Origin: Rhodocyclales bacterium
GTDB taxonomy: Bacteria; Pseudomonadota; Gammaproteobacteria; Burkholderiales; Rhodocyclaceae
Direction of reading: 5' to 3'
Assembly (NCBI GenBank): GCA_016235165.1
Contig: JACRLX010000007.1
Location: forward strand, 1-64,000
Length of the DNA stretch: 64,000 nucleotides
The notes below the pieces were generated by a model. That model ran no database searches. It saw only the letters and a program-made list of their open reading frames with translations, and was not told the origin of the DNA. Shown here piece by piece: positions 7,519 through 59,125 of the stretch (its first letter is position 1; every line of letters starts with the position of its first letter). The position numbers and the translations under genes were made by a program.

Positions 7519-8266
7519 AGCGGAAGCGCCGGCGCGGCCCGGGAATCGCCCCCGGCAGCCAGGTCTGCTCATCGAAGCTGGCCCAACCGCCACGCCCCAC
7601 CGTCAATATCGTCGAACTTCGCGTGCCATAGCGCGGTGACTTGACGAAGGCGGCGGAAAGCAGGCGTTCCCACTCCAGCGCCACGCCGGTCCGCGGCAAC
7701 ACGTGATCGGGATGGAGACCGTCGTCGGTCAGCAGCGCCAGAAGCCCCCGCTGGTCGGGCAGCGCGTCGAGCGCCGCCGCCAGCGCCGTCTTGCCAGCGC
7801 CGACTTTTGGCCAGGGCGTATCGAGCAGATGGTTCGACAGGCCGTAAATTCCCGGCGCCAGTGCACGAGCCCTACCACCCATGTTGGATGACCACCACAG
7901 CGATTGTCCGTCGCCCAGCAGCAGGTTGTAGCCATTGCATTCCCGGCCCAGGGATTCGGTCTTCGCCAGATACGTGCCCGGCTCGTCCTGCCCGACAAGG
8001 AATCCCGACACCAGCCCGCCACGCGACGGGGTTCCGCTGCGCATCTGCGCCGGGTCGCGGTAATTGGTCAAGGCGGCGAAGCGTCCGCCGCGCGTAATGC
8101 CCATCCAGGTTCCGCCGGCTTCCAGGTCGCGTCCGGCAAGAACCGTCGACGCCTCGGCCCAGAAATCAGCCGGTGCCGTCGGGCGGACAAAGAACTCGTC
8201 GCGATTGGCGGCCACCACCAGCGGGTAGTCCGGGTGCATCTGCCAGGCGAGAAAAATGAGGCACAT
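7466..8266 (-). CDS. NRDE/TANGO2-family protein
   Basis: The 266-aa protein begins MCLIFLAWQMHPDYPLVVAA and then has ANRDEFF, the diagnostic NRDE motif with Cys2 near the N-terminus. GGTWMGITRGGRFAALTNYRDP and SRGGLVSGFL are further family signatures. TANGO2-like proteins are widespread and have been linked to Golgi organisation and heme handling in eukaryotes; the bacterial role is not established. The ATG at 8266 lies 7 bp after the ygfZ stop, so the pair is an operon. The C-terminal tail contains a short SPGVASPGVA repeat and lies in the convergent overlap with the transpeptidase-acetyltransferase gene. A degenerate copy of the dispersed 25-bp element lies at 7781-7805. Confidence 0.88.
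   Translation of the reverse strand: MCLIFLAWQMHPDYPLVVAANRDEFFVRPTAPADFWAEASTVLAGRDLEAGGTWMGITRGGRFAALTNYRDPAQMRSGTPSRGGLVSGFLVGQDEPGTYLAKTESLGRECNGYNLLLGDGQSLWWSSNMGGRARALAPGIYGLSNHLLDTPWPKVGAGKTALAAALDALPDQRGLLALLTDDGLHPDHVLPRTGVALEWERLLSAAFVKSPRYGTRSSTILTVGRGGWASFDEQTWLPGAIPGPRRRFRFRMSPGVASPGVATRPR
7781..7805 (-). repeat. Degenerate copy of the 25-bp element in the TANGO2-like gene
   Basis: The left arm is perfect and preceded by AAA; the right arm retains ACGGCG only (17 of 21). It encodes VGAGKTAL. Weakest of the listed copies. Confidence 0.3.
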
Positions 8267-8273
8267 GACTGCC

Positions 8274-9299
8274 TCAGGCGGCGTCGGCTTCCGTGATGTT
8301 ATAGGGCAGGGGGAGAAATTCGAGACGTTCGCCGGCCGGGCTGCCGACGCGCACCTCGCCGCCCTCCTGGGCACCGATCTGCACGCATACCAGGCACTCA
8401 TGCCCGCCGTCAGGAGAGGGCGCCAGACTGACGATGGCGCCGCAGTGCTGCTCGCCAGTTTCGGGGGCATACACATGGGTGCCCGGCGCGAACGCGGAAC
8501 TCACGCGCGCGCGAAAGCTGCGCCGCTTGACCTTGCCCAGGTACTGGGTGCGGGCCACGATTTCCTGGCCCGGATAACAGCCCTTGGTAAAGCTGACGCC
8601 GCCCACCGCCGGCAGTTCCATGTTCAGCATTTGCGGCACGAAGGCCTCCTGTGTGCCAGCCACCACGCGTGGCTGACCCGCGGCGATTTCCAGCCACTGC
8701 CACGTGGCCGTTCCGACCGCATGCGCTGTCCCGGCGTAAGCCTGCCAGACACCAACCGCCTCGACAGGTTCCAGCGCCAGCAGCCAGCGGTGCTGATCCA
8801 GGCGGATGGCGCGACCACCTGGAACCCTAGCCAGCGCGAAACGCGGCAATTCGGCAAGAGTCGGCGCCGGCGGCACGGCGACCGAGGCAAAGCCGACGAG
8901 ATTCAGCTCGGCGGACGCATCCGTGAGTTTCACCTTGGCGCGCAGGACATACATCGACAGCTTTTTCAGTATCGACGGCAGGATCTCGCGCGGCAGCATG
9001 AGGAGGAAGTCGTCGCCATCACGCCAGACCAGAAACACCGCCAGCAATCGTCCCTTGGCAGTGCACATGCCGGCAGAACGTGCGTTGGAGGTACCAAGGC
9101 CCTTGATATCATTGGTCAGCAGGTTATGCAGAAAATCGGCGGCGTCCGGCCCGCTGGCGCGAATCAGGCCGTGGTCGAGCAGGGGCGCGAGCACGCTGCC
9201 TGAACCTGCTGCGACCAACTCCGGACCGAGATCGCCAAAGCTGCTGCCGTCGGCCACAAGGCCTTGTCCGGCAAGAAAAGTAGTCCAGTCCTGATTCAT
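8274..9299 (-). CDS. ygfZ: tRNA-modifying protein YgfZ (folate-binding, GcvT-like)
   Basis: YgfZ is a tetrahydrofolate-binding GcvT paralogue needed for activity of some iron-sulfur enzymes and for tRNA thiomethylation. The 341-aa product contains the family hallmark KGCYPGQEIVARTQYLGKVK, including the Cys required in the E. coli protein. The ATG at 9299 gives MNQDWTTFLAGQGL; an upstream non-ATG extension has no support. Residues about 140-147 (VAVPPAPT) are encoded by an intact copy of the dispersed 25-bp element. The gene is divergent from mltG, an arrangement common in proteobacteria. Confidence 0.92.
   Translation of the reverse strand: MNQDWTTFLAGQGLVADGSSFGDLGPELVAAGSGSVLAPLLDHGLIRASGPDAADFLHNLLTNDIKGLGTSNARSAGMCTAKGRLLAVFLVWRDGDDFLLMLPREILPSILKKLSMYVLRAKVKLTDASAELNLVGFASVAVPPAPTLAELPRFALARVPGGRAIRLDQHRWLLALEPVEAVGVWQAYAGTAHAVGTATWQWLEIAAGQPRVVAGTQEAFVPQMLNMELPAVGGVSFTKGCYPGQEIVARTQYLGKVKRRSFRARVSSAFAPGTHVYAPETGEQHCGAIVSLAPSPDGGHECLVCVQIGAQEGGEVRVGSPAGERLEFLPLPYNITEADAA
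8859..8883 (+). repeat. Dispersed 25-bp palindromic element, intact copy in ygfZ
   Basis: Arms AGTCGGCG and CGGCGACC are intact around a nine-base centre (all 21 constrained positions match the consensus from the other copies). It is preceded by GCAAG, as in the mfd copy. Read on the gene strand it encodes VAVPPAPT in YgfZ. Confidence 0.75.
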
Positions 9300-9323
9300 A
9301 ATGTCCGTCCAGTTTGCATGGTT

Positions 9324-9341
9324 CGCGATGCTATTATCGCG
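9324..9341. promoter_or_regulatory. Inverted repeat in the ygfZ/mltG divergent region
   Basis: CGCGAT and ATCGCG form perfect 6-bp arms around a 6-bp spacer in the 87-bp gap between the ygfZ and mltG starts. It could be an operator for the divergent pair. No clear minus-35/minus-10 pair was found, so a chance palindrome is possible. Confidence 0.3.
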
Positions 9342-9386
9342 GCACCCTTCCACGTTGCGTCGGTTTGCCACTTATTCAAGGTCATC

Positions 9387-10376: not shown

Positions 10377-10377
10377 G

Positions 10378-18707: not shown

Positions 18708-19952
18708 TTATACGTCGAGCAGCATGCGCGCCGGATCTTCCAGCGCTTCCTTCATCGTCACCAGACCCAGCACCGCCTCGCGGCCGTCGATGATGCGATG
18801 GTCGTAGGACATGGCCAGGTAGTTGATCGGGCGGATCACGATCTGGCCGTTCTCGACCACCGGGCGATCCTTGGTGGCATGGATGCCGAGGATGGCCGAT
18901 TGCGGCGGGTTGATGATCGGCGTCGACAGCATCGAGCCGAACACGCCGCCATTGGAGATCGAGAAGGTACCGCCGGTGAGTTCCTCGATCGAGATCTTGC
19001 CGTCCTTGGCCTTCTGGCCGAACTCGGCAATCTTCTTCTCGATCTGCGCCAGGCTCATCTGGTCGGCATCGCGCAGGATCGGCACCACCAGGCCGCGCGG
19101 CGAACCCACGGCGATACCGATGTCGAAGTAGCCGTGATAGACGATGTCATTGCCGTCGACCGAGGCGTTGAGCACCGGGTACTTCTTCAAAGCAGCCACG
19201 GCGGCCTTGACGAAGAAGGACATGAAACCGAGGCGAACGCCGTGCTCCTTCTCGAACTTATCGAGGTATTTCTTTCGCATCTCCATCACCGGGCCCATGT
19301 TCACCTCGTTGAAGGTAGTCAGGATGGCGTTGGTGGATTGCGATTGCACCAGGCGCTCGGCGACGCGGGCGCGCAAGCGCGACATGGGCACGCGCTGCTC
19401 GGGACGTTCGGCGACGATGGCCTCGGCGCTGACCACATTGGGCTGCGGCAGGGCCGGTCGCGCGGCAACGGAAGTCGGCGCTGGGGATACGGCGACCGGA
19501 GTGGCGGCAGCGGGCTTGGCGGCGCCGCTGACGTCTTCCTTGAGGATACGGCCGCCGCGACCGGAGCCCTGCACGTCGGCGGCGGAGATGCCTTTCTCGT
19601 CCATGATCTTGCGCGCGGCGGGCATGGCGGTCGCCGCCGCAGGGGCAGCAGCCGGCACCGCGGCCTTCGCCGGGGCCGCAGCCGCCTTGGCCGCGGGAGC
19701 CACGGCAGCCTTGGCTTCGGTATCGATCTGGGCGATGACTTCGCCGGAAGCGACCGTCTCGCCGTTCTGCTTGATGAGCTTGACGATCACGCCGGCATCG
19801 GGCGCCGGCAGTTCAAGCACGACCTTGTCGGTTTCGATGTCGATCAGGTTCTGGTCGCGGGCAACGGCATCGCCTTCCTTGACATGCCAGGCCGACAACG
19901 TGGCCTCGGCGACGGATTCGGACAGCTGGGGGACTTTGACTTCGATGATCAT
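18708..19952 (-). CDS. sucB: Dihydrolipoyl succinyltransferase (E2 of 2-oxoglutarate dehydrogenase)
   Basis: SucB transfers the succinyl group from lipoamide to CoA and forms the complex core. The 414-aa protein has one lipoyl domain (residues about 2-77, lipoyl Lys in ETDKVVLE), an Ala-rich linker, and a peripheral-subunit-binding domain ([17 protein letters not shown] to GGRILKEDV). A second Ala/Pro linker and the catalytic domain with [13 protein letters not shown] follow. GGAGAAATC precedes the ATG at 19952. An intact copy of the dispersed 25-bp element encodes VAVSPAPT in the second linker (about residues 153-160), a flexible place that tolerates insertion. Confidence 0.96.
19473..19497 (+). 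repeat. Dispersed 25-bp palindromic element, intact copy in sucB
   Basis: Arms AGTCGGCG and CGGCGACC are intact (21 of 21 constrained positions). On the gene strand it encodes VAVSPAPT in the linker between the subunit-binding and catalytic domains of SucB. Confidence 0.75.
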
Positions 19953-27915: not shown

Positions 27916-28665
27916 TCAGCCAAGCTCGTTGAAATAGCAATGCTCACTGGTCTGATATAGTCCGCGACGCCACTCGACCGGCTTGTCGGCATAGGAAAAA
28001 CTGACCCGCTCCACCGACAGCAGCGGGCTGCCTTCGGCAACCCTGAGCAGTTCGGCGCTGGCACGATCGGCGGGTACCGCGCGCAAGCGTTCCTCGGCGC
28101 GGATCATGCGGACGCCAAACTTGGATTCAAAAAAGCTGTACAGGGAACCTTCGAAATCGCGCAGCATTTCCAGTGTCAGCGTGCCGAAGATGCTGCCGGG
28201 AAGATAGATTTCATCGACTACCACCGGCTTGCCGGCAAACTGGAGCAGGCGCCGCACGATGTTGATCGGGTCGCCGATATTCAGTTCGAGCATGCGTGCT
28301 ACTTCCGGCCCGGCCTTGGCGCGCCAGCATTCCAGCGGTACGCTCTGCGCCTGTTCGATGCCGCCGGAGAGCGGCACCAGGCGCAGGAAGCGGAAGAAGG
28401 CACGGGGGTCATCGTGCGATGCAACGAAAGTTCCTTTCCCCTGGCGACGCAACAACAGGTTTTCGGCCGCCAGTTCGTCGATGGCCTTGCGCACGGTTCC
28501 TTGGCTGACGCTGAAGCGGACGGCCAGTTCCGATTCGCTCGGGATGGCCTCCCCTGGCCGCCATTCGCCAGATTCGAGACGTTGCATCAGCAGGCTCTTG
28601 ATCTGGCGATAAAGAGGGCTGAAAGTCGGCGATGGCGAGACGCTGGATTCAGACATGATGCGCAT
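27916..28665 (-). CDS. GntR-family regulator, HutC subfamily
   Basis: The 249-aa protein has a GntR winged-helix DNA-binding domain (PLYRQIKSLLMQRLESGEW, then SESELAVRFSVSQGTVRKAI) and a C-terminal UTRA ligand-binding domain ending in VERVSFSYADKPVEWRRG. It lies between the divergent sdh and mdh arms of the TCA cluster, facing a perfect palindrome at 28705-28720 that fits the HutC operator style. It is the obvious candidate regulator of both arms; the effector is unknown but a TCA intermediate is likely. ATGs at 28665 and 28656 are both possible; neither has a strong ribosome-binding site. Confidence 0.9.
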   Translation of the reverse strand: MRIMSESSVSPSPTFSPLYRQIKSLLMQRLESGEWRPGEAIPSESELAVRFSVSQGTVRKAIDELAAENLLLRRQGKGTFVASHDDPRAFFRFLRLVPLSGGIEQAQSVPLECWRAKAGPEVARMLELNIGDPINIVRRLLQFAGKPVVVDEIYLPGSIFGTLTLEMLRDFEGSLYSFFESKFGVRMIRAEERLRAVPADRASAELLRVAEGSPLLSVERVSFSYADKPVEWRRGLYQTSEHCYFNELG

Positions 28666-33560: not shown

Positions 33561-33630
33561 GCTTTTTGGCGCCGTGGTACCAGCTGTCCGCAAGGGATAC
33601 CGTCTCCGGCCCGAGCCGGAGACATAACTT

Positions 33631-33930
33631 TTATTCGCCGCGCCGCATCTCGCGGCGGCGTTCGCGCATGCGTTCTGGATACAGGTCGCGCCCGGCATCG
33701 TGCACATCGCGCCGCAGCTGCCTGCGCTCCTCGGGAGTCATGCGCTGCCGCTGCGCCGCATCGCCCTCGGCGTTGAACTGAGTCGGCCGCGCCTCCGGCA
33801 TCATGCGCTGCGGTGCGGGTCCGCCACCGCGCTCGCGCCGCGGGCCCGGCACACCCTGCGCAGAGACCTCGGCCGCCAGCAGCAGTGCCGTAGCCAGCAT
33901 TATCCAAAACGACCTGCGTCCCGCGTTCAC
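33631..33930 (-). CDS. Small exported basic protein of unknown function
   Basis: The product (about 99 aa) starts at GTG 33930, preceded by AAAGGA with good spacing. It has a signal peptide (SFWIMLATALLLAAEVSAQG). A very Arg-rich mature part follows, containing RMTPEERRQLRRDVHDAGRD and ending RRREMRRGE. The MTPEERRQLR-type stretch recalls small periplasmic helical proteins of betaproteobacteria, but I cannot name a family. It lies 20 bp after another tiny exported ORF, and both face the ompR/envZ pair. Confidence 0.6.
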   Translation of the reverse strand: MNAGRRSFWIMLATALLLAAEVSAQGVPGPRRERGGGPAPQRMMPEARPTQFNAEGDAAQRQRMTPEERRQLRRDVHDAGRDLYPERMRERRREMRRGE

Positions 33931-34971: not shown

Positions 34972-36297
34972 ATGAGGCTCCTGCCGCGCTCGCTGCTGTG
35001 GCGTACCTTCCTCCTGCTTGCGGTGCTGATGCTGATTTCGGTCACCGCCTGGTTTGCCATCTTCCGCGCCTACGAGCGCGAACCGCGTGCCCGGCAGTTG
35101 GCGCAAACTCTGGTCAGCGTGGCCAATCTGACGCGCGCGGCATTGATTTCGGCGCGCGCAGATTCACGCCGCGAACTGCTGCGCGAGCTTTCCGACCGCG
35201 AAGGCATCCACATCTATCCGGCCGAGCCGGGCGACCGCATCGAACCCCTGCCCGACCGCGCCTTCCTCCTGCGCGTCGAGGAGCTGGTGCGCGATCAGCT
35301 TGGACCGACGACGCGCCTGACGCTGGAACGCGAAGGCGAGCGCGCCCTCTTCCTCAATTTCCGCATCGACGACAGCGAAGACGGCAACTACTGGCTGACG
35401 TTGCCGCGCGAACGCATCGAACGCGTGTTTCCGCTGGGCTGGCTGGGCTGGGGTGTTGCCGCGCTGCTCCTTTCCCTGGGCGGCGCCTGGCTGATCGTGT
35501 TCCGCATCACCCGCCCGCTCAAGGCCCTGCAACACGCAGCGCGGGAAGTCGGCGCCGGTGGCACGCCGACGCGGCTCGACGAAAACGGCCCGACAGAGCT
35601 GGCCACCGTGGCCCACGCCTTCAACCAGATGAGCGCCGACCTGGCGCGAATCGATCAGGATCGGGCGCTGATCCTGGCCGGCATTTCCCACGACTTGCGC
35701 ACTCCGCTGACGCGCCTGCGCATGGGCATCGAAATGGCTGGCGACGAGTTGCTGCGCGAAGGTATGACGGCGGATGTCGAGGAGATGGACAAGACCATCG
35801 GCCAGTTCCTCGATTTCGCCCGCTCCGAGGGCGGCGAGGCGATCGCGGAAGTCGACCTGCCCGCCTTGCTGAATGAGATCGCCGGGCAGTACCGACGACG
35901 CGGATACGCCGTCGACTGTTCCGGGAGCATCGATGTTCCCCGTCTGCGACTGCGGCCCCAGGCCATGCGCCGCGCCGTGAGCAATCTCATCGACAACGCA
36001 CTGCGTCACGCTGGCCGCGACCAGCCGGTGGAAATCGCTCTCGCAGGTGACGACGACGGCTGGACCGTGCAGGTACGAGATCATGGACCCGGGATCCCCC
36101 CCGCCGAAATCGAGCGGGTCAAACGACCCTTCGCCCGCCTCGAATCCGCGCGCAGTAACGCCGTTGGCGCCGGCCTCGGCCTCGCCATCGTTGACCGCGT
36201 GGCCCGCGGTCATGGGGGAAAACTCGCTCTCCTGCCGCGCGATGGCGGCGGACTCGTGGCCTGCATTCGACTGCCTCTGGCAGGCCATCCCTCCTGA
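34972..36297 (+). CDS. envZ: EnvZ-like sensor histidine kinase
   Basis: The 441-aa inner-membrane kinase has two membrane helices (about residues 9-30 and 155-178) flanking a periplasmic sensor. A HAMP domain, the H-box GISHDLRTPLTRLRMG, the N-box NLIDNALRHAG and G-boxes DHGPGIP and GAGLGLAIV follow. It phosphorylates the adjacent OmpR-type regulator. A degenerate copy of the 25-bp element (35547-35571, encoding VGAGGTPT) lies in HAMP but could be ordinary HAMP coding sequence. The stop is followed by a T-rich tract near 36318 without a clear stem. Confidence 0.9.
   Translation: MRLLPRSLLWRTFLLLAVLMLISVTAWFAIFRAYEREPRARQLAQTLVSVANLTRAALISARADSRRELLRELSDREGIHIYPAEPGDRIEPLPDRAFLLRVEELVRDQLGPTTRLTLEREGERALFLNFRIDDSEDGNYWLTLPRERIERVFPLGWLGWGVAALLLSLGGAWLIVFRITRPLKALQHAAREVGAGGTPTRLDENGPTELATVAHAFNQMSADLARIDQDRALILAGISHDLRTPLTRLRMGIEMAGDELLREGMTADVEEMDKTIGQFLDFARSEGGEAIAEVDLPALLNEIAGQYRRRGYAVDCSGSIDVPRLRLRPQAMRRAVSNLIDNALRHAGRDQPVEIALAGDDDGWTVQVRDHGPGIPPAEIERVKRPFARLESARSNAVGAGLGLAIVDRVARGHGGKLALLPRDGGGLVACIRLPLAGHPS
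35547..35571 (+). repeat. Degenerate copy of the 25-bp element in the EnvZ-like gene
   Basis: 19 of 21 constrained positions match; the right arm has one change and the last base differs. It encodes VGAGGTPT in the HAMP domain and may be ordinary coding sequence. Confidence 0.4.
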
Positions 36298-41385: not shown

Positions 41386-41952
41386 TCAAGGCGGGTCGGC
41401 AACGGCGAGCGGAAAGCGCGCGAGGGTGCGATAGCTGGCGGCGCCCGGATGCAAGTGGCTTTCCACCAGGGCGAACTCGTCCACATGCCAGGCGATTGGC
41501 GTATCCAGGCGCGGCAGGTTGCGGCAGCGCACTCGGCGCGCCAGCGTGACGTGGGGAATCAGACCCTGTCCGCCATGGCGCTCGAAGCGGAAATCGGCGG
41601 CCGTCAGCGCTTCCGACAAGCTTGCGAAAAGTCGGCGCAGGGGCGACGGCGTTTGTTCGCATCCGGCCCAGAGTATGCCCCGCTGTGGCCAGAAGCCAAG
41701 CCTGTCGAGCCTCACGTCGAAGGCCTCGGCATGGATGCCCTCGGCGATGGCATGCAGTTGCCCCAGTTGTGCCGATGTCACCGAGCCGATGAAAACCAGC
41801 GTCAGGTGCAGCGAATGCGCACGCAGCGGCCGGCTGCCGGGCGATGCCAACGCTTGCCCCAGCGAGGCCAGATGCGACATGGCTTCGGCATCCGGCCAAA
41901 GCGCAAAGAAGACCCGGTGCGAACGCGCGCCGTCGATCTCAGCCCGATTCAT
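41386..41952 (-). CDS. thpR: RNA 2',3'-cyclic phosphodiesterase (2'-5' RNA ligase family)
   Basis: The 188-aa protein carries the two HxTx catalytic motifs, HLTLVFIG and HVTLARR, of the 2H phosphoesterase superfamily. The physiological substrate in bacteria is unclear. It overlaps ispF by 14 bp and ends the ispD-thioredoxin-ispF-thpR operon. A degenerate copy of the 25-bp element lies at 41630-41654. Confidence 0.92.
41630..41654 (+). repeat. Degenerate copy of the 25-bp element in thpR
   Basis: The left arm is perfect and preceded by GAAA as in the kup copy; the right arm keeps ACGGCG but loses the ending (18 of 21). Confidence 0.35.
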
Positions 41953-44797: not shown

Positions 44798-46143
44798 ATG
44801 ATCACTGCCACTACCCTGCGCCCGCCCGCCGTCGCCGGCATGTTCTATCCCGGCGATCCCGCCGTCCTGAGCGACGAACTGGCGACCTGCCTGTCAGTCG
44901 CCGCAGTACCAGCGCCGACTTCCACTGGCCTGCTGAAAGCCCTGATCGTGCCGCATGCCGGGTACGTCTATTCCGGCGCTACCGCCGGCCAGGCCTATGC
45001 GCTACTCGCCCCGCTGGCAGAGCGTATCCGGCGCGTGGTGCTGCTGGGGCCCTGCCATCGCGTTGCGGTGAATGGCCTTGCCGTACCAACCGTGCAGGCC
45101 TTCGCCACGCCGCTGGGCAGCATTCCGCTCGACCGCGCCGCGCTCGATTCCCTTGCCGGGCTGCCGCAAGTGGTCGCCAGCGACGCCGCCCATGCCCAGG
45201 AGCACTCGCTGGAAGTGCAACTGCCCTTCCTGCAAACCGTGCTCGGGGACATCAAGCTGGTACCCCTGGCCGTGGGCAGGACCGGCGCGCGCGAGGTTGC
45301 CGACGTGATTGCCCGACTTTGGGGTGGCCCCGAAACCCTGATCGTGATCAGTTCCGATCTGTCGCACTTCCACGGCTACGCCGAGGCCCGGCGCATCGAT
45401 GGCGAAACCGCCGACCACATCCTCGCCCTGGAACAGCTGAGCAGCTTCGACCAGGCCTGCGGCGCCTTGCCGATCAACGGCCTGCTGCTTGTGGCGAAAC
45501 AGCTTGGGCTGGGCATCGAACGCATCGCCCAGTGCAACTCCGGCGATACCGCGGGCGACAAGTCGCGCGTGGTCGGCTATGCCAGCTTCGCGCTCTACGA
45601 ACCGGCCCCTGCGGCGGCCGACGACCCCGGCCCGGCGCTGCTGGCGCGCGCGCGCAACGCCATTGCCGGCCAGCTCAAGCAGGCTCTGCGTCCCGAGCCC
45701 GACCATGCGGCATTGGCACAGCCCGGTGCCACCTTCGTCACGCTGACACAGAACGGCGCCTTGCGCGGCTGCATCGGTTCGCTACAGGCCCACCGGCCGC
45801 TTGATCAGGACGTGCGCGCCAATGCCATCGCCGCCGCCTTCCGCGATCCGCGCTTTGCGCCCCTGACGGCCGAGGAACTGCCGCGCACGCGGGTCGAGGT
45901 CTCCCTGCTCACGGCACCACAGCCGATGCGCTTCTCCGATGAGGCCGACGCCCTGCGCCAGTTGCGGCCAAATGTCGATGGCGTGATCTTCAGCGCCGGC
46001 AACCACCGCAGCACCTTCCTGCCCCAAGTCTGGGAACAACTGCCCGAACCGCGCCAGTTCATGGCCCATCTCAAGCAGAAGGCCGGATTGCCCGCTGACT
46101 ACTGGTCGTCCGAAGTCGAACTGCAACGCTATGAGGTCCGCAA

Positions 46144-46168
<25 letters not shown>
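44798..46168 (+). CDS. Fused MEMO and AMMECR1 protein (AmmeMemoRadiSam system B and A)
   Basis: The 456-aa protein joins two conserved domains. Residues about 1-270 are MEMO (RPPAVAGMFYPGDPAVLSDE, LIVPHAGYVYSGATAGQAY, EHSLEVQLPFLQ, VISSDLSHFHGY) with conserved His/Cys-type metal site residues. Residues about 275-456 are AMMECR1 (FVTLTQNGALRGCIGSL, DPRFAPLTAEEL). These and the downstream radical SAM protein form the AmmeMemoRadiSam set, whose reaction is unknown. A copy of the dispersed 25-bp element encodes VAAVPAPT near residues 33-41, between the first strand and LIVPHAG. The last 25 bp overlap the radical SAM gene. Confidence 0.92.
44896..44920 (-). repeat. Dispersed 25-bp palindromic element in the MEMO-AMMECR1 gene
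   Basis: Both arms (AGTCGGCG and CGGCGACT on the minus strand) are intact, with two differences in the centre (19 of 21). On the gene strand it encodes VAAVPAPT near the N-terminus of the MEMO domain. Confidence 0.7.
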
Positions 46169-47248: not shown

Positions 47249-47273
47249 AGTCGGCGCTGGCGGGACGGCGACT
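47249..47273 (+). repeat. Dispersed 25-bp palindromic element at the kup stop codon
   Basis: Arms AGTCGGCG and CGGCGACT are intact (21 of 21). The last bases supply part of the kup TAG stop. On the minus strand the hairpin is followed by TTTTC, so this copy may act as the kup terminator in the 33-bp convergent gap with amrS. Confidence 0.75.
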
Positions 47274-49152
47274 ACAGCGTTACCCGCGTCCCCAGTTCCA
47301 CCACCTGGTTGGGCGGCAGGCCAAAGAAATCGGCGGCGGTGCCGGCATTGCGGTACATGCGGGCGAACAGGGACTCGCGCCAGTAGGGCATCGCGTCGCC
47401 AACCCTGGGCACCACGGTTTCGCGGCCGAGGAAGAAGGAAGTCGTCATCGGGTCGAGTTCCAGTCCCTGCTCCCCGCACCACTCCAGCGCCGCCGGGACG
47501 TCGGGCGTGTCCATGAAGCCGAAATGAATGCCGACGTGGAAGAAGCGATGGCTGAGGCGGGCCACCGCCACACGCTGCGCATCGGGCACGCGCGGCACTG
47601 ATTCCATGGTGACCGTGACCAGCGCCACCTGTTCGTGCAGCACCTTGTTGTGCTTGAGGTTGTGCAGCATGGCGTGCGGCACATGCTCCGGATAGGGCGT
47701 CATGAACACCGCGGTGCCGGGCACGCTGATCGTGTCCGGGGTCTCGATGGCGGGAATGAAGTCCTTCAGCAGCAGGGCCTGGGTGTCGAGTCTCTCCTGC
47801 AGGAGTTCGCGCCCGGCTTTCCAAGTGGTCAGCAGCAGGTAGACCGCGCCGCCGAACACCAGCGGGAACCAACCGCCGTCGAGGAGCTTGGTCGAATTGG
47901 CGGCAAGAAAGGTCAGGTCCAGCACCAGCAGCGCGCCGAATACCGGCAGCGCCAGGCGGCGGCGCCAGCCCCACTGCCGGCGCGCGACCAGCCAGGCGAA
48001 CAGCGAGGTGATGATCATGGTGCCGGTCACCGCGATGCCGTAGGCCGCCGCCAGGTTGGTCGATGACTTGAAGGCCAGCACCAGCGCGATCACGCCCAGC
48101 AGCATCAGCCAGTTCACGCCGGGCATGTAGATCTGCCCCATCTGGCTGCCCGAGGTGTGCAGCAGTTCCATGCGCGGTGCATAGCCGAGCTGGATCGCCT
48201 GCTGGGTGATCGAATACACCCCGGTGATCACCGCCTGCGAGGCGATCACCGTGGCCGCCGTGGCCAGGCCCACCAGCGGCAGCAGGAACCAGTCCGGCGC
48301 CATCAGGTAGAAGGGGTTCCTGATCGTGGTCGGGTCGTCCAGCAGCAGCGCGCCCTGGCCGAAGTAGTTGAGCAACAAGGCTGGCAGCACCAGGCCGAAC
48401 CAGGCCAGGCGGATTGGCCGCCGGCCGAAGTGGCCCATGTCGGCATACAGCGCCTCGGCCCCGGTGACGACGAGAAAGACGCTGCCCATGGCGAGAAAGC
48501 CGAGGCCAGGATCGGTGGCGAGGAAGGCCAGCGCATGGCCCGGCCAGAGCCCGGCCAGAACCGCCGGATGGCGCAGGATCTGCATCACGCCCATGGCCGC
48601 CAGGGCGACGAACCAGACGCAGGTGATCGGCCCGAAGGCGACGCCGACCCGCGCCGTGCCGTGGCGCTGGATCCAGAACAGCGCGACGAGTATCCCCAGC
48701 GTGATCGGCACGATGTAGGGCGCGAACACCGGGGTGGCCACCTCCAGGCCTTCCACCGCCGAGAGCACCGATATCGCCGGCGTGATCAGGCCGTCGCCGT
48801 AGAACAGCGCGGCGCCGAACAGGCCGAGCAGGATCACCGCCTGCCGGGTTCGCCCTGTAAATCCCTGATCGGCGAGGACGCGCGCCATCAGCGCCATGAT
48901 GCCGCCCTCGCCCTTGTTGTCGGCGCGCAGGATCAGCGCCACGTACTTGAAGGACACCACGACGATCAGCGCCCAGAACACCAGCGAGAGTATGCCCAGC
49001 ACGTTGTCCGGCGTAATAGGCACCGGGTGGTGGGCATTGCCGAAGACTTCCTTGATGGCATACAGCGGGCTGGTGCCGATGTCGCCATAGACCACGCCCA
49101 GCGCGGCAAGGGCGAGGATGGCGGTACTGTCTTTCTGATCTTCGTGGCTCAT
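47272..49152 (-). CDS. kup: Low-affinity potassium transporter Kup
   Basis: Kup imports K+ with protons. The 626-aa protein has about 12 membrane helices in its first 440 residues (ALAALGVVYGDIGTSPLYAI, LFGAALFYGDGLITPAISVL) and a cytoplasmic C-terminal domain ending NQVVELGTRVTL. Its ATG overlaps the kdpE stop as ATGA, so the K+-sensing pair kdpDE is co-transcribed with kup rather than with kdpFABC. The stop codon overlaps an intact copy of the 25-bp element, followed on this strand by TTTTC, which may double as a terminator. Confidence 0.96.
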   Translation of the reverse strand: MSHEDQKDSTAILALAALGVVYGDIGTSPLYAIKEVFGNAHHPVPITPDNVLGILSLVFWALIVVVSFKYVALILRADNKGEGGIMALMARVLADQGFTGRTRQAVILLGLFGAALFYGDGLITPAISVLSAVEGLEVATPVFAPYIVPITLGILVALFWIQRHGTARVGVAFGPITCVWFVALAAMGVMQILRHPAVLAGLWPGHALAFLATDPGLGFLAMGSVFLVVTGAEALYADMGHFGRRPIRLAWFGLVLPALLLNYFGQGALLLDDPTTIRNPFYLMAPDWFLLPLVGLATAATVIASQAVITGVYSITQQAIQLGYAPRMELLHTSGSQMGQIYMPGVNWLMLLGVIALVLAFKSSTNLAAAYGIAVTGTMIITSLFAWLVARRQWGWRRRLALPVFGALLVLDLTFLAANSTKLLDGGWFPLVFGGAVYLLLTTWKAGRELLQERLDTQALLLKDFIPAIETPDTISVPGTAVFMTPYPEHVPHAMLHNLKHNKVLHEQVALVTVTMESVPRVPDAQRVAVARLSHRFFHVGIHFGFMDTPDVPAALEWCGEQGLELDPMTTSFFLGRETVVPRVGDAMPYWRESLFARMYRNAGTAADFFGLPPNQVVELGTRVTL

Positions 49153-49853
49153 GTCGCGGCATCCTGGAGTTGAAAGCGATAGCCGACGCCGGTTTCGGTC
49201 AGCAGGTGGCATGGCCGCGCCGGGTCGGCTTCGAGCTTCTGCCGTAAATGACCGATGTAGATGCGCAGGTAGTGGCCGCGCTCGGCGTGGCCGGGGCCCC
49301 AGACTTCCTTGAGCAGTTGGCGGTGGGTCAGCACGCGCCCGGCATTGGCCAGCAGCACGCCGAGCAGGCGGTATTCGATCGGCGTCAGGTGGATCGCCGC
49401 CCCGTCGCGCGTCACCGCGCGATGCACGCGGTCGACGCGGATCGCGCCGAACTCGATCACCGTCTCGCCGGCGCCGACTTTCGGCCGCCGCAAGAGGGCC
49501 CGCACCCGTGCCCGCAGTTCGAGGACACCGAAAGGCTTGGTCAGGTAGTCGTCGGCCCCGGCATCCAGCGCCGCGACCTTCTCCGCTTCGGCCGAGCGGG
49601 CGGACAGGACCAGGATCGGCAACCGGGTCCAACCGCGCAGTTCGCGGATCAGCTCGACGCCATCGCGGTCCGGCAGGCCGAGGTCGACGATGGCAAGCGC
49701 AGGCAGCGGCCCGGTGAAGGCCTCCAGCGCCGCGGCAGCCGTCGCGGCTTCGAGCACGCCGCCCTCGTCTTCCAGCGCGGCGCCGACGAAGCGGCGGATC
49801 TGCGGCTCGTCCTCGACCACCAGGATCAGCGGTCTTTCGTCATTCACCGGCAT
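49149..49853 (-). CDS. kdpE: KdpE-like response regulator
   Basis: The 234-aa OmpR-type regulator has ILVVEDEPQIRRFVGAALE, the phospho-acceptor in AIVDLGLPDRDG, Lys in YLTKPFG and a winged-helix domain with VWGPGHAERGHYLRIYIGHL, close to KdpE. It overlaps kdpD by 14 bp and kup by 4 bp. No kdpFABC genes are present here, so kup is the likely target. A degenerate 25-bp element copy lies at 49455-49479 (encoding VGAGETV). Confidence 0.9.
   Translation of the reverse strand: MPVNDERPLILVVEDEPQIRRFVGAALEDEGGVLEAATAAAALEAFTGPLPALAIVDLGLPDRDGVELIRELRGWTRLPILVLSARSAEAEKVAALDAGADDYLTKPFGVLELRARVRALLRRPKVGAGETVIEFGAIRVDRVHRAVTRDGAAIHLTPIEYRLLGVLLANAGRVLTHRQLLKEVWGPGHAERGHYLRIYIGHLRQKLEADPARPCHLLTETGVGYRFQLQDAAT
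49455..49479 (-). repeat. Degenerate copy of the 25-bp element in kdpE
   Basis: The left arm is perfect; the right arm has two C-to-T changes (19 of 21). It encodes VGAGETV between the receiver and DNA-binding domains, a linker position. Confidence 0.4.
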
Positions 49854-51494: not shown

Positions 51495-54400
51495 ATGAAG
51501 TCCCTGCCGACGCCGCCCGGCCCTGTCAAACCGGGCCAACGCCTCGCACTGCCACCGCTGTCTCCGTCCGCCGATGCGCTGGCACTCTCGCGGCTCGCCC
51601 GTTCCGGCCGGCTGCTCGCGGTGATAAGCGCCAGCCCGCTGGAAGCCCAGCGCCTGGCCGAGGAAATCGGCTGGTTTGCGCCTGAGCTGCGCACGCATCT
51701 GCTACCGGACTGGGAAACCCTGCCCTACGACAACTTCTCGCCGCACCAGGATCTGGTTTCCGAGCGGCTGGCGACGCTGCATGCAGTCTCGTGCAACGAG
51801 TGCGAGATACTGATTGCCGCCGCACCGACCGCGGTGACGCGGCTGGCACCGCCCAGCTTCCTCGCCGGCCACACCTTCTTCATGAAAAAGGGCGAGCGCC
51901 TCCAGCTCGACAAGCTGCGCGCGCAACTCACGCTCGCCGGCTACCAGCACGTGACCCAGGTGGTCGCCGCCGGCGAGTACAGCGTGCGCGGCGGCCTGGT
52001 CGACCTGTTCCCGATGGGCACCCAGCTGCCCTACCGCATCGAACTGTTCGACGACGAGATCGAAACCATCCGCAGCTTCGACGTCGACAGCCAGCGCAGC
52101 CTCTACCCGGTGCCCGAAATCCGCCTCCTGCCGGCGCGCGAGTTCCCCACCGGCGAGGCCGGGCGCACCCTGTTCCGCCAGCGCTTCCGCGAGACCTTCG
52201 AAGGCGATGCCTCGCGCATCGGCCTTTACAAGGATGTCTCGAACGGCATCCTGCCCGCAGGCATCGAGTACTACCTGCCGCTGTTCTTCGAGTCCACGGC
52301 AACGCTGTTCGACTACCTGCCGCCGCAGGCCACCCTGCTGCTGCATGGCGACGTGCCCGCCGCGATCGCCGAATTCTGGGCCGACACCCGGGGGCGTCAC
52401 AAAATGCTGGGCGGCGACCGCTCGCGGCCCGTGCTGCCGCCTGAAGCCCTGTTCCTGCGCGACGAGGAGTTCTTCGTCGCGGCAAAAGCCCTGCCGCAAT
52501 ACCTGCTGAAAGCAAGAGTCGGCGCTGAAGCTACGGCGACTCCTGCGGAAGACCTGCCGCCGCTGGCCGTTGATCGCAAGGCCGACGATCCGCTTTCCCT
52601 GCTGCGCGCATTCCTCGGTCGCTTCGCCGGGCGCGTGCTGCTGCTGGCCGAATCGCCGGGCCGGCGCCAGACCCTGGCCGACTTCCTTGCCGAATACGGC
52701 ATGCTGCCCACGCCCTGCGAAGACTTCGCCGGCTTCCTCGCCGCACCGGAGCGCTTCCTGCTCGGTGTCGGGCCGCTCTCGGGCGGCTTTCAGCTCGACG
52801 CTCCGAAGGAAGTCCCCTTGGGGGACGACCTGGCCGTCGTCACCGAGAACGAGCTCTACGCCGCCACCGCCCGTCCGCGCGGACGGCGCTCCGACGCCCG
52901 CCGCGCCAACCTCGACGGCTGGCTGCGCGACCTCTCCGAACTCAAGATCGGCGACCCGGTGGTGCACGAAGCCCACGGCATCGGCCGCTACCTCGGCCTC
53001 GCCCACATGGATTTTGGCGAGGGCGCCACGGAAATGCTGCACCTCGAATACGCCAACGGCGCCAAGCTCTACGTGCCGGTGGCGCAGCTCCAGGTGATCT
53101 CGCGCTACAGCGGCGCCGATCCGGAATCCGTGCAGTTGCACACCCTCGGCTCCGGGCAGTGGGAAAAGGCGAAGAAGAAAGCCGCCCTGCAGGTGCACGA
53201 CACCGCCGCCGAGCTGCTGCATCTCTATGCCCAGCGCGCCGCGCGCGAGGGCCACAAATTCGATTTCAAGCAGCACGACCTGGAGGCCTTCGCCGACGGC
53301 TTCGGCTTCGAGGAAACCCCGGACCAGCAGGCCGCGATCAACGCCGTGGTCGAGGACATGAAATCCGGCAAACCGATGGATCGCCTGGTCTGCGGCGACG
53401 TCGGCTTCGGCAAGACCGAGGTGGCAATGCGCGCCGCCTTCGTCGCCGTGGCCGACGGCAAGCAGGTGGCGATCCTCTGCCCGACCACGCTGCTGGCCGA
53501 GCAGCACTACCAGAACTTCGCCGACCGCTTTGCCAACTGGCCGGTGAAGGTGGCCGAGATCTCGCGCTTCAAATCGGCGAAGGAACAGGACGAGGCCGTC
53601 GCGCTGCTGGCGCAAGGCAGGATCGACATCCTGATTGGCACCCACCGCCTGCTGCAGCAGGACGTCAAGTTCGAGCGCCTGGGCCTCGTCATCATCGACG
53701 AGGAGCACCGCTTCGGTGTGCGCCAGAAGGAGGCGCTGAAGGCCCTGCGCGCCGCGGTGGACGTGTTGACCCTGACCGCGACGCCGATCCCGCGCACCCT
53801 GGGGCTGTCGCTGGAAGGCCTGCGCGATTTTTCGGTGATCGCCACGCCGCCGCAGAAGCGCCTGGCGATCAAGACCTTCGTCTCCAAGTGGTCCAACGGC
53901 CAGGTGCGCGAGGCCTGCCTGCGCGAGTTCAAGCGCGGCGGCCAGGTGTACTTCCTGCACAACGAGGTCGACACCATCGCCAACATGAACGAGCGGCTGG
54001 CAGCCCTGCTGCCCGAAGCGCGCATCGTGGTCGGCCACGGCCAGCTGCCCGAGCGCGAGCTGGAACGCGTGATGCGCGAGTTCACCCAGCAGAAGCACAA
54101 CCTGCTGCTCTGCTCGACCATCATCGAGACCGGCATCGACAACCCGCACGCCAACACCATCGTCATCAACCGCGCCGACAAGTTCGGCCTGGCCCAGTTG
54201 CACCAGTTGCGCGGCCGCGTCGGCCGCAGCCACCACCAGGCCTACGCCTACCTGCTGACCCACGAGGACGCCAAGCCCACGGCGCAGGCCAAGCGGCGTC
54301 TGGAGGCCATCCAGGCCATGGAGGAACTCGGTTCCGGCTTCTTCCTCGCCATGCACGACCTCGAAATCCGCGGCGCCGGCGAGGTGTTGGGCGAATCACA

Positions 54401-54947
54401 GAGCGGCGAGATCCACGAGGTCGGCTTCGCCATGTACACCAACATGCTCAACGCCGCGGTGCGCGCGCTCAAGGCCGGCGAGAAGATCCCCGACCTGACC
54501 CAGCCCCTCTCGATCACCTCGGAAATCAACCTGCGCGTGCCGGCACTGCTGACCAAGGACTACTGCCCCGACGTGCATGAACGCCTGACGCTCTACAAGC
54601 GCCTCGCCAACTGCGACAGCGAGGATGATCTGCGCGCCATGCAGGAGGAACTGATCGACCGCTACGGCGAGATGCCGGCGCAGACCTTGGCCCTGATCGA
54701 AACCCACCGCCTGCGCCTGGCCGGAAGGTCGTTGGGACTGGCCAGGCTGGATGCCGGGCCGCAGGCGATACAGGTGCAGTTCGTGCCCAACCCACCCATC
54801 GATCCGGCCGACATCATCGGGCTGATCCAGTCCGACCGCAGCTTCAAGTTCGCCGGCCCGGACAGGCTGACCTGGCAAAAGGCGACACCCGCGCTGCCGG
54901 AGCGGGTGGCGGCGGTAAAGGAATTGTTCCGCCGGCTGAAAAACTGA
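51495..54947 (+). CDS. mfd: Transcription-repair coupling factor Mfd
   Basis: Mfd removes stalled RNA polymerase and recruits UvrA. The 1150-aa protein has full length, with a UvrB-like N-terminal module (LLPDWETLPYDNFSPHQDLV, GEYSVRGGLVDLFPMG), a polymerase-interaction domain (residues about 480-550) and a RecG-like translocase. Translocase motifs include CGDVGFGKTEVAMRAAF, DEEHRFGVRQKEAL, TATPIPRTLGLSLEGLRDFS and LHQLRGRVGRSHHQAYAYLL. An intact copy of the 25-bp element is read in frame as RVGAEATATP around residues 341-350, between the UvrB-like module and the rest, apparently as a tolerated insertion. Confidence 0.97.
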   Translation: MKSLPTPPGPVKPGQRLALPPLSPSADALALSRLARSGRLLAVISASPLEAQRLAEEIGWFAPELRTHLLPDWETLPYDNFSPHQDLVSERLATLHAVSCNECEILIAAAPTAVTRLAPPSFLAGHTFFMKKGERLQLDKLRAQLTLAGYQHVTQVVAAGEYSVRGGLVDLFPMGTQLPYRIELFDDEIETIRSFDVDSQRSLYPVPEIRLLPAREFPTGEAGRTLFRQRFRETFEGDASRIGLYKDVSNGILPAGIEYYLPLFFESTATLFDYLPPQATLLLHGDVPAAIAEFWADTRGRHKMLGGDRSRPVLPPEALFLRDEEFFVAAKALPQYLLKARVGAEATATPAEDLPPLAVDRKADDPLSLLRAFLGRFAGRVLLLAESPGRRQTLADFLAEYGMLPTPCEDFAGFLAAPERFLLGVGPLSGGFQLDAPKEVPLGDDLAVVTENELYAATARPRGRRSDARRANLDGWLRDLSELKIGDPVVHEAHGIGRYLGLAHMDFGEGATEMLHLEYANGAKLYVPVAQLQVISRYSGADPESVQLHTLGSGQWEKAKKKAALQVHDTAAELLHLYAQRAAREGHKFDFKQHDLEAFADGFGFEETPDQQAAINAVVEDMKSGKPMDRLVCGDVGFGKTEVAMRAAFVAVADGKQVAILCPTTLLAEQHYQNFADRFANWPVKVAEISRFKSAKEQDEAVALLAQGRIDILIGTHRLLQQDVKFERLGLVIIDEEHRFGVRQKEALKALRAAVDVLTLTATPIPRTLGLSLEGLRDFSVIATPPQKRLAIKTFVSKWSNGQVREACLREFKRGGQVYFLHNEVDTIANMNERLAALLPEARIVVGHGQLPERELERVMREFTQQKHNLLLCSTIIETGIDNPHANTIVINRADKFGLAQLHQLRGRVGRSHHQAYAYLLTHEDAKPTAQAKRRLEAIQAMEELGSGFFLAMHDLEIRGAGEVLGESQSGEIHEVGFAMYTNMLNAAVRALKAGEKIPDLTQPLSITSEINLRVPALLTKDYCPDVHERLTLYKRLANCDSEDDLRAMQEELIDRYGEMPAQTLALIETHRLRLAGRSLGLARLDAGPQAIQVQFVPNPPIDPADIIGLIQSDRSFKFAGPDRLTWQKATPALPERVAAVKELFRRLKN
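52517..52541 (+). repeat. Dispersed 25-bp palindromic element, intact copy in mfd
   Basis: Arms AGTCGGCG and CGGCGACT are intact (21 of 21), again preceded by GCAAG. It is read in frame in Mfd as VGAEATAT, in a low-complexity stretch before a well-conserved segment. Confidence 0.75.
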
Positions 54948-55337: not shown

Positions 55338-55720
55338 TTGCGCTGCTCGACACCAATGCCTTTCTGCGTTGGGTAGAGGGCGACGACAAGCTTTCGACCA
55401 GGGCGAAATCCTGCATTGCCAATCCGGACAACGAAATCCTGGTTAGCGTGGTCGTCGCCTGGGAGCTGGCGATCAAGTCCGGCCAGGGCAGCATCCGTTT
55501 GGCGCAGCCGGTCGGGCGCTATGTGGCGAGCCATATCGAGGCCAACGGCTTTCGCCTCCTCGGCATCGAGCTCGACGATGCGGCGGCGGTCGAAACCCTG
55601 CCCTTGCATCACCGCGATCCCTTCGATCGCCTGCTGATCACCCAGGCCCTCAACCGCAAGTTGCCCGTGGTCAGTTCCGACCGGGCGTTTTCCGACTATG
55701 GCATCAAACGCATCTGGTAA
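55334..55720 (+). CDS. PIN-domain toxin, VapC type
   Basis: The 128-aa product starts at GTG 55334 inside the antitoxin stop region. It is a PIN ribonuclease: LLDTNAFLRWVEG gives the first acid, VVVAWELAIKSGQG the Glu, HHRDPFDRLLITQAL the next Asp, and VVSSDRAFSDYGIKRIW the last. All four acidic positions are present, so it should be active. Such toxins cleave tRNA or rRNA; the target is unknown. aroG follows 5 bp downstream and might be partly read from this promoter. Confidence 0.9.
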   Translation: MIALLDTNAFLRWVEGDDKLSTRAKSCIANPDNEILVSVVVAWELAIKSGQGSIRLAQPVGRYVASHIEANGFRLLGIELDDAAAVETLPLHHRDPFDRLLITQALNRKLPVVSSDRAFSDYGIKRIW

Positions 55721-55725
55721 ACAAT

Positions 55726-56802: not shown

Positions 56803-56818
56803 GAATGCGAGAGCGAAA

Positions 56819-58045: not shown

Positions 58046-58057
58046 GTGCAACCGGGC

Positions 58058-58095
58058 AAACAAAAAGGGCAACCCTCGGGTTGCCCTTTTTGTTT
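58058..58095. terminator. Bidirectional rho-independent terminator
   Basis: GGGCAACC and GGTTGCCC form a perfect 8-bp stem with a CTCG loop (58067-58086), flanked by an A-run and a T-run that extend the pairing. It serves the DUF1015 gene on the plus strand and the HU gene on the minus strand. Confidence 0.93.
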
Positions 58096-58107
58096 GAAAC
58101 GGAAAGC

Positions 58108-58467
58108 TTACTTCTTCTTCGCGGCCGGCTTCTTGGCTGCGGGCTTGGCGGCGGCCTTCTTGGCCGGAGCAGCCTTCTTGGCGGCGGGCTTCTTGCCGGC
58201 CACGGCGGCCTTCAGGCCGGCGCCGGCGGTGAACTTCGGCACGGCCTTGGCGGCGATCTTCAGGGGGGCACCGGTCTTCGGGTTCTTGCCGGTACGGGCG
58301 GAGCGCATCACCGACTTGAAGGTACCGAAGCCGATCAGTGCCACCGGATTGCCCTTGGCGATAACGGAGGTGATCACATCGGTCAGCGCATCAATCGCCT
58401 TGTTGACAGCCGCTTTGGAAAGTTCGGCACGCTCGGCAACGGCATCGATCAGTTCGGTCTTGTTCAT
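58108..58467 (-). CDS. HU-family DNA-binding protein with lysine/alanine-rich tail
   Basis: The 119-aa protein starts MNKTELIDAVAERAELSKAA and has an HU core (IGFGTFKSVMRSARTGKNP) of about 88 residues. The tail after it is made of PAAKKAA/PAKKAA-like repeats and ends KKPAAKKK, reminiscent of histone H1. AAGGGG before the ATG at 58467 supports this start over an upstream one. Such tails increase DNA binding and compaction in other bacteria with tailed HU. Ordinary HU lacks the tail, so a second, normal HU gene is expected elsewhere. Confidence 0.93.
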   Translation of the reverse strand: MNKTELIDAVAERAELSKAAVNKAIDALTDVITSVIAKGNPVALIGFGTFKSVMRSARTGKNPKTGAPLKIAAKAVPKFTAGAGLKAAVAGKKPAAKKAAPAKKAAAKPAAKKPAAKKK

Positions 58468-58579
58468 CAGGTTCCCCTTTGGTTTGGAAAGGCGCATTGA
58501 AACACTAATCGCGGCGCGGAAGCAAGCCCCGCGCGCGTCTTCGATGAAAATAATTTGCGCGGAAAGAACAGGCCGCGAA

Positions 58580-59125
58580 TCACATGCCCTTCACGGCGTA
58601 CACCGCCGGCAGGTTGCGCCAGGCCCCTTTTACATCCATGCCATAACCAAAGACATAGCGATTCGGCAGACGCAGGCCGACGAAGTCGGCGGCGACCGGC
58701 TTGGCGCGACCGAGATCCTTCTCCGCGAACACGGCGCTCAGCACCTCGTGCGCGCCCAGCTCGCGCAGGCGTTGCACGATGGCGGCCATGGTCACGCCTT
58801 CGTCGAGGATGTCATCCAGCACCAGCACCGTGCGCCCGGCCACCGGCAGGCGCGGCTCGACCAGCCAGTTCAGGCGGCCGCCCACCGTGACATCGCCATA
58901 GCGGGTGACATGCAGGTAATCGAAATCGAGGGGAAAGGCGAGCTGCGGCAGCAACTGGCCGGTGAACACCACGGCACCGCCCATCACCGCCAGCAGCAGC
59001 GGATTGGCGTCGGCCAGGCGCGCCGTGATTTCGGCGGCGACGCGCCGTACCGCCAGCGCCGACTCCTGTTCGGAATGCAGCAGGTCGGCCTCGGCGAGGA
59101 TGGTCCGCGCTTCAGCGGGTGTCAT
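58580..59125 (-). CDS. hpt: Hypoxanthine-guanine phosphoribosyltransferase
   Basis: This enzyme salvages hypoxanthine and guanine with PRPP. The 181-aa protein has [30 protein letters not shown] and the PRPP motif [14 protein letters not shown], followed by [19 protein letters not shown]. It overlaps galU by 4 bp (ATGA) and ends the smc-zipA-ligA-galU-hpt run. A degenerate 25-bp element copy lies at 59040-59064. Confidence 0.92.
59040..59064 (-). repeat. Degenerate copy of the 25-bp element in hpt
   Basis: The left arm and centre nearly equal the kup copy; two changes near the right end (19 of 21). It encodes SALAVRRV in the N-terminal helix of the phosphoribosyltransferase. Confidence 0.4.

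Follow-up and report, generated by a model that had tools for sequence, protein, structure and literature searches.

The window considered here is a 64,000-nucleotide stretch of a Rhodocyclales assembly (contig JACRLX010000007.1, positions 1 to 64,000) in which a short, imperfectly palindromic motif recurs within and between genes. The genome to which it belongs (G000; 4.47 Mb in 57 contigs) is inferred to be that of a member of Sulfuritalea (Sterolibacteriaceae in the NCBI taxonomy). A first-pass annotation had described the motif by the strict pattern AGTCGGCG-N9-CGGCGACY. The five sites that it reported as exact (8859, 19473, 47249 and 52517 on the plus strand and 44896 on the minus strand) all match that pattern exactly, and the degenerate copies that it placed at 7781, 35547, 41630, 49455 and 59040 lie within 2-3 mismatches of it, those at 7781, 49455 and 59040 being on the minus strand. 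The weaker copy that it placed at 28624 has >3 mismatches, and its membership is doubtful. These copies, together with one longer composite form, are situated as follows.

8859..8883, plus strand: exact motif copy in a GCV_T-domain gene (8274-9353, minus strand), frame VAVPPAPT
19473..19497, plus strand: motif copy exact to the strict pattern in a 2-oxoacid dehydrogenase acyltransferase gene (18708-19952, minus strand), frame VAVSPAPT
44896..44920, minus strand: motif copy exact to the strict pattern in a variable segment of a Memo/AMMECR1 gene (44798-46168, plus strand), frame VAAVPAPT
47249..47273, plus strand: exact motif copy between the converging ends of a radical SAM gene (ends 47238) and kup (ends 47272)
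52517..52541, plus strand: motif copy exact to the strict pattern in a variable linker of mfd (gene 51495-54947), frame RVGAEATAT
7781..7805, minus strand: degenerate copy in a TANGO2-family gene (7466-8266, minus strand), frame KVGAGKTA
35547..35571, plus strand: degenerate copy in the HAMP domain of a RisS-type histidine kinase gene (34972-36297)
41630..41654, plus strand: degenerate copy in a LigT/2'-5' RNA ligase-like gene (41386-41952, minus strand)
49455..49479, minus strand: degenerate copy in an OmpR-type regulator gene (49149-49853, minus strand), KVGAGETV
59040..59064, minus strand: degenerate copy in an hpt-like phosphoribosyltransferase gene (58580-59125, minus strand), frame ESALAVRR
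28624..28648, plus strand: weak copy of doubtful membership near the 5' end of a GntR/UTRA regulator gene (27916-28665, minus strand)
33570..33632, minus strand: long composite, form B, reading AAAGTTATG-hairpin-CGGTATCCC..GGA and then a decayed motif core, beside a terminator-like hairpin

At ≤3 mismatches the window holds 20 matches to the strict pattern on both strands, a count in which a palindromic site may score twice, against a shuffle mean of 4.24 and a maximum of 11. The repeat itself is real, but the length of 25 bp first given to it is not: the profile of 71 copies in G000 (≤2 mismatches), C-R-R-R-A-G-T-C-G-G-C-G-C-Y-G-G-Y-G-N-N-A-C-G-G-C-G-A-Y-Y, has sharp ends at -4 and +25, and by information content the motif spans 29 bp between these positions. 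Its centre, CYGGYGNNA, contains the shared bases already noticed there. The refined 23-mer used for counting is AGTCGGCGCYGGYGNNACGGCGA, and the form of the motif in Sulfuritalea is CRRRAGTCGGCGCYGGYGNNACGGCGAYY.

The whole-genome search that the annotation had proposed finds 42 exact matches to the strict pattern in G000 and none to the reversed pattern, and all 31 genomes of the genus contain the strict pattern, with 2 to 45 copies each. The 23-mer occurs exactly 176 times in G000, 88 times per strand, and at ≤1 mismatch the complete genome of G001 (3.8 Mb) has 517 copies, 263 plus and 254 minus, with no match to the reversed pattern in either genome. Great over-representation of a short motif on both strands, one of the features by which it was compared with DNA uptake sequences (DUS) and uptake signal sequences (USS), is thus present, with reversed-pattern controls of 0. 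Counts of this size are far above what composition and codon use would yield, as the annotation had maintained. In the equal-codon-use control that it had called for, run as 60 synonymous-codon shuffles within 1,089 script-called genes (1,078,194 bp), the shuffles had on average 0.07, 1.4 and 6.7 copies (maxima 1, 5 and 12) at ≤0, ≤1 and ≤2 mismatches, compared with 23, 72 and 111 observed. Chance and codon use are rejected as a full explanation by the shuffles of the window and by the synonymous shuffles.

The fixed bases of the motif are conserved beyond the demands of the protein code. Choosing a site by the copy detected in one genome can depress that copy's apparent rate of change by up to half, and the test was for this reason redone on the other genomes only. 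With the detecting genome omitted, third codon positions differ at 9.7% of fixed motif positions (94/968), at 30.9% of flanking positions (949/3076) and at 53.7% of the free NN positions (66/123). Of the 10 coding ortholog groups, 9 have a lower rate in the motif than in the flanks (Wilcoxon p=0.005). This test used 11 of 27 ortholog groups (10 coding, 1 intergenic), selected by requiring a detecting copy at ≤1 mismatch and gap-free alignment of two or more further genomes. A pairwise version, covering 446 pairs of ungapped orthologous coding copies at 85 sites, gave 6.9% for the motif, 32.5% for flanks and 54% for free positions. In a sister genus, g2, the corresponding pairwise figures at third positions are 3.5% (6/172), 30% (135/450) and 41% (9/22), and between genes 0 of 57 motif positions differ compared with 29 of 159 in flanks; these values count reciprocal pairs from both sides and include the detecting genome, and of the 75 copies 50 had an aligned partner, 22 gapped ones being excluded. 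A motif more conserved than its flanks, a further feature sought from DUS and USS, is therefore found in both Sulfuritalea and g2. An inert repeat would not be expected to show such constraint.

The motif is also restricted by lineage and is spelled differently in different genera. Its shared core, ANTCGGCGCTGGYGNNACGGCR, is held by 22 of the 399 genomes of the order, with a control of 0 throughout; it is abundant in four genomes, which belong to three genera of a single family (G180, 269; G000, 232; G050, 132; G278, 46), and no copy of this core is present in nine further genomes of that family. Orthologues in distant genera with the same codons at the same sites had been named by the annotation as an observation that would tell against it. 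Of ten genomes from other genera of the family, only those of g2 and of a second sister genus, g6, have the motif at sites of the window, and both genera carry it genome-wide as well. In g2, the profile of 75 copies from 400 kb of G050 and G180 is AAA-N-TCGGCGCTGGCG-R-G-ACGGC-A-C, with A at position 22 in 93% of copies and position 2 loose; the reversed control gave one match at the same threshold. The g2 spelling, AAANTCGGCGCTGGCGRGACGGCAC, has ACGGCA where Sulfuritalea has ACGGCG. Three sites are common to the two genera, in mfd, in the Memo/AMMECR1 gene and in a gene encoding VVVGPCSIHD, which we take to be DAHP synthase. At these sites all six g2 copies end in GGCA, while Sulfuritalea copies mostly end in GGCG, with GGCR in a few linkers. 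In the last of these genes the encoded peptide is ESVLAGRRT in Sulfuritalea and KSVLAGRHT in g2, aligned without gaps, so that R changes to H with the dialect. Lineage dialects, in the form of two spellings at three shared sites, are in this way a third feature that the motif has in common with DUS and USS.

The two spellings also bear on the palindrome that first drew attention to the motif. It holds in the Sulfuritalea spelling but not fully in that of g2, where pairs 3-23 and 4-22 on the outside no longer form, 69 of 75 copies having C4 opposite A22, and the inner pairs remain. Because of this loss the palindrome is partly a local feature, and it was rejected as the defining one.

Placement was surveyed in a 1.18-Mb sample drawn from 17 genomes of the genus; our own gene caller assigned 91% of it to coding sequence. 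About two thirds of the copies at ≤2 mismatches (111/170) lie inside genes, 44 of them read as xVGAGxTA on the same strand, 26 as VAVxPAPT on the opposite strand and 29 as ESALAxRR; in the lists for G000 and G009, the ESALAxRR copies stem from a few conserved genes. In the window, copies occupy inter-domain linkers, variable segments (mfd, Memo/AMMECR1) and gene ends. The linkers are those between the E3-binding (amino acids 109-141) and catalytic (183-412) domains of the acyltransferase, for the copy at 19473, and between the receiver (10-118) and DNA-binding (152-227) domains of the OmpR-type regulator, for that at 49455; the latter copy is kept in aligned relatives, and other genera have a different linker. 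At the mfd site a related copy stands in the same place in genomes of g2 and g6. In the orthologous mfd linker of G009 (locus L112) the motif is replaced, in frame, by an unrelated inverted repeat with GTTCGCCCTGAGCCTAGCGAAGGGC; this linker is apparently a hot spot for insertions. The 58 intergenic copies (of 59 intergenic or edge copies) that have neighbours on both sides fall into 20 convergent, 27 unidirectional and 11 divergent gaps, compared with 77, 359 and 125 among all gaps of ≥30 bp. Many intergenic copies lie ≤25 bp from a gene 3' end, and both 3' ends and convergent gaps are enriched. The scatter of copies through unrelated genes, as first described, is real; their confinement to core genes is not, as they also occur in unshared DNA.

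On a larger scale, copies are spaced more evenly than random in G050 (coefficient of variation, CV, 0.67; P=0.008), and spacing in G180 tends in the same direction (CV 0.80, P=0.087). Regional placement was considered and abandoned: the strict pattern left two gaps of >0.5 Mb in G001, which the looser pattern fills as far as a list of about 100 of its 517 matches extends. Separately, 41 stretches of viral contigs (L296-L336) each contain one exact copy of the 23-mer and are possibly host flanks or proviruses.

Comparison of orthologous sites bears on how copies arise. At the hpt-like site the single aligned outgroup, G308, is equal in length but different in sequence, with no insertion or deletion, and two ungapped sites have an orthologue that differs from the consensus at 10-11 of 23 positions between flanks that are 89-90% identical. 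The intergenic copy at 47249 is missing in G021, in a gapped alignment with modest flank identity. The check for presence or absence in relatives that the annotation had suggested is accordingly answered only in part, by this one aligned absence on the one side and the change without insertion or deletion at the hpt-like site on the other. In 216 comparisons the distance between flanks is other than 25, and in 198 of these the difference is divisible by three.

Another type of variation involves longer, hairpin-bearing forms, of which the composite at 33570..33632 is an example. The module GAGACGGTATCCCTTGCGG has 21 matches in G000 at ≤3 mismatches, 20 of which carry the form-B hairpin by eye; several of these hairpins directly follow stop codons, and most are followed by the motif core, with at least two lacking it. 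The module family, TTATG-stem-loop-CGGTATCCC(Y)TGYGGGA, numbers about 20 in G000 (L061-L080), a few modules stand alone (L078, L080, L090:13554), and compensatory changes are seen at hairpin pairs 2, 4 and 8 among 18 copies from several genomes. Form C consists of exactly 27 extra bp (TATGCGCAGCGGTATCCCCTTGCGGGA) between AGT and CGGCG, as seen at one orthologous site in G000 relative to G027. Five Sulfuritalea genomes contain between 1 and 8 copies of form C apiece, and G278 contains none. Of the orthologues examined at the place of the 44896 copy, two have hairpin form C and four have form D. The site comparison covered 15 chosen sites, one of them without an orthologue. The long forms may represent an independent hairpin repeat that landed in or beside the motif. 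None of 20 loci, 18 of them chosen for long forms or their matches, had an Rfam match at the gathering score. Related observations include two further internal hairpin-like modules (24 and 27 bp) at orthologous sites in motif copies of G009 (L151/L165, L153/L163), and a tandem of two ATGTCTCC..GGAGACGGTAT hairpin modules in G007 (L134:12147).

A Y1 transposase match is present in 26 of the 31 genomes of the genus. Scored against NCBIfam NF047646, the REP-associated tyrosine transposase (REP, repetitive extragenic palindromic), one protein of the common type (from L175) reaches 55 bits, below the cut-off of 80. Genes of this REP-associated type (L172-L196) occur once or a few times per genome across most of the genus and have terminal inverted repeats (TIRs) AAAGGGGYCAGRSTC or GGGGACAGACCACG; they are mostly bounded by inverted repeats of their own, AAAGGGGYCAG or GGGGACAGACCACG, and the place of the motif relative to these TIRs varies, inside or outside. 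The check for a REP-associated transposase thus has two sides: genes of the common type often adjoin the motif, but at least six motif-bearing genomes lack that type. G000 has only an IS200-type transposase, and G003, G005, G006, G026 and G027 have no Y1 match, and strict copies nevertheless number 42 in G000, 33 in G027 and 31 in G003. In other genera with Y1 genes, no copy at ≤4 mismatches was found near those genes except one in G278. After the IS200-type gene of G000 (L146, G000:C2:87-443) comes a hairpin, CCCCCGGCTCTGCCGGGGGGATAC, similar to the stem of the hairpin modules.

Several known systems offer points of comparison. DUS of the Neisseriaceae and USS of the Pasteurellaceae are described, in passages of PMC2397512 and PMC3630211, as present in hundreds of copies, genic and intergenic, conserved above their flanks, in permissive locations and with genus dialects, all of which resemble the present motif. 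PMC2397512 adds that replacements of DUS can be too divergent to have arisen by point mutation, and PMC3630211 that DUS dialects differ by genus. The motif here differs in being longer (22-29 bp), in that inverted pairs are rare and no core bias is seen, and in its lineage. REP sequences and bacterial interspersed mosaic elements (BIMEs), associated with REP-associated tyrosine transposases (RAYTs), comprise GTAG- and CGTC-tagged families according to passages of PMC3733652, where they appear, like the motif, as short imperfect palindromes in hundreds of copies with a preference for gene 3' ends and some intragenic copies. The motif profile has neither of the terminal tags described there, and its copies are mostly genic (111/170 at ≤2 mismatches). 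Nor is a conserved palindrome or hairpin found, the outer pairs holding in Sulfuritalea but not in g2, and the fixed bases are constrained at synonymous sites.

Rickettsia palindromic elements (RPEs), which are longer inserted elements than the motif with its 23-29 bp or so, are likewise short repeats read in frame within proteins; the motif differs in having at least one site without insertion or deletion relative to an outgroup and in being about two thirds, not wholly, genic. The small dispersed repeats (SDRs) of cyanobacteria are very small (21-27 bp) and also genic, in both respects like the motif, but we know of no description of SDRs that includes dialects or synonymous-site conservation. 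In the literature searched (repeats, Sulfuritalea, uptake sequences), which excludes subscription papers, no description of the motif was found, and among the matches listed for a text search with two of its 11-mers none is about repeats by title. The part of the RepRanger study seen (PMC12306157) names none of the groups searched for.

Taken on its sequence features, the motif behaves as a maintained recognition motif with genus-dependent spelling rather than as an inert palindromic repeat, a reading that follows from the constraint at third positions, the agreement of two genera and the ACGGCA dialect. We infer that a protein acting in trans recognises it and that selection or biased transfer preserves the copies. 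Our best guess, with a probability of about 0.47, is that it is a DNA-uptake-type signal resembling DUS and USS; the combination of maintained copies and a spelling that shifts by genus matches published descriptions of DUS better than those of REP. It is offered by analogy as a candidate uptake-type motif, and membership in DUS or USS is not claimed. Besides abundance, constraint and dialect, this reading draws on the change without insertion or deletion at the hpt-like site, the two ungapped divergent sites, the placement in inter-domain linkers and the even spacing in G050. In such a system the competence machinery would have a surface DNA receptor with a preference for fragments that bear the motif; decayed copies would be repaired by recombination, which would also carry the motif into permissive places such as domain linkers and gene ends, and the spelling would drift along with the receptor between genera, as with DUS and USS. 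To our knowledge, self-recognition uptake motifs are known from two families. It is tentatively suggested, at somewhat less than even odds, that Sulfuritalea and two sister genera represent an undescribed lineage of self-DNA recognition with a 22-29 bp tag and genus dialects; such a candidate tag would exceed known uptake motifs in length, would be embedded in protein linkers and would be preserved at synonymous sites.

A number of observations count against an uptake signal. Neisserial DUS are 10-12 bp, shorter than the motif, and inverted pairs, common for DUS at terminators if not definitional, are seldom seen: 204 sites include 3 close pairs, of which 2 are inverted. No core-genome bias is apparent, with 20 copies in 131 kb shared with G027 and 6 in 46 kb unshared, a small sample. 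Spacing is near random in one of two listed G001 stretches (CV 0.96) and lower in the other (0.73). The longer hairpin-bearing forms that some species carry at motif sites are not predicted by uptake, 18 further genomes of the order have 1-4 copies of the core despite a control of 0, and the motif (≤3 mismatches) lies ≤150 bp from a Y1 transposase in 13 of 23 loci compared with 108 of 853 ordinary genes. This enrichment (odds ratio 9, p=1.2e-6) includes some orthologous loci that are not fully independent, and 6 of 29 transposase loci (L168-L172, L193) were excluded as unmatched by the motif search, L172 holding such a gene by eye.

Of the four readings originally offered, the uptake signal and the protein-binding site are favoured, and those of REP/BIME and RPE are weakened by the lack of a GTAG or CGTC tag, the unconserved outer palindrome and the occurrence of change in place. 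The second of the favoured readings, a genome-wide binding site of a chromosome-organising, repair or segregation protein of nucleoid-associated type, would have copies kept by purifying selection and a dialect that follows the protein's altered specificity. It draws on the same constraint and dialect data and accommodates the balanced strands (263 and 254 in G001), the absence of core bias and the near-palindromic Sulfuritalea form, which suggests two-fold recognition. The loss of the outer palindrome in g2 sits poorly with it, however, and a range of 2 to 45 strict copies across the genus, many of whose genomes are drafts, would be odd for an essential chromosome function; we regard it as the less probable of the two. 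A very small mobile repeat of REP, RPE or SDR type, perhaps moved in trans by a Y1 transposase of REP-associated type, is somewhat less probable still. Under it, hairpin modules would yield the longer forms and genic copies would persist in the frames KVGAGDT or VAVSPAPT, in keeping with the about 20 hairpin modules of G000, most followed by the motif core and showing compensatory changes, with the exact 27-bp difference between forms A and C at one orthologous site, with the enrichment at gene 3' ends and convergent gaps and near transposases, and with the aligned absence at 47249. That absence is the only one reasonably aligned, though, and its flank identity is modest; synonymous-site conservation, the hpt-like site without insertion or deletion, the missing terminal tag, the outer palindrome not kept in g2, the at least six genomes without the REP-associated-type gene (among them the copy-rich G000, G027 and G003) and the varying position relative to transposon TIRs all speak against mobility. 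A mobile modular element had been the first working idea and was demoted after the synonymous-site test and the dialect.

Very improbable is a coincidence of GC-rich codon choice with common peptides (xVGAGxT, PAPT, ESALAxRR). Three reading frames do predominate among coding copies, some degenerate copies are at conserved coding positions (the HAMP and hpt-like sites at 35547 and 59040, gap-free in 14 and 4 relatives, respectively), and shuffles still yield 6.7 copies at ≤2 mismatches. Against these stand the 23, 72 and 111 copies observed in the same test, the existence of intergenic copies, the restriction by lineage and the constraint at third codon positions. Coincidence of codons and peptides may explain single degenerate sites and is refuted for exact and near-exact copies.

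If the motif is indeed an uptake-type signal, a further dialect-bearing lineage among environmental bacteria would allow fresh tests of how such motifs originate and of selection versus drive. If it is instead a chromosome-binding site, it would be an unusually information-rich one, present in tens to over 500 copies. Either reading predicts a specific recogniser that varies with the dialect.

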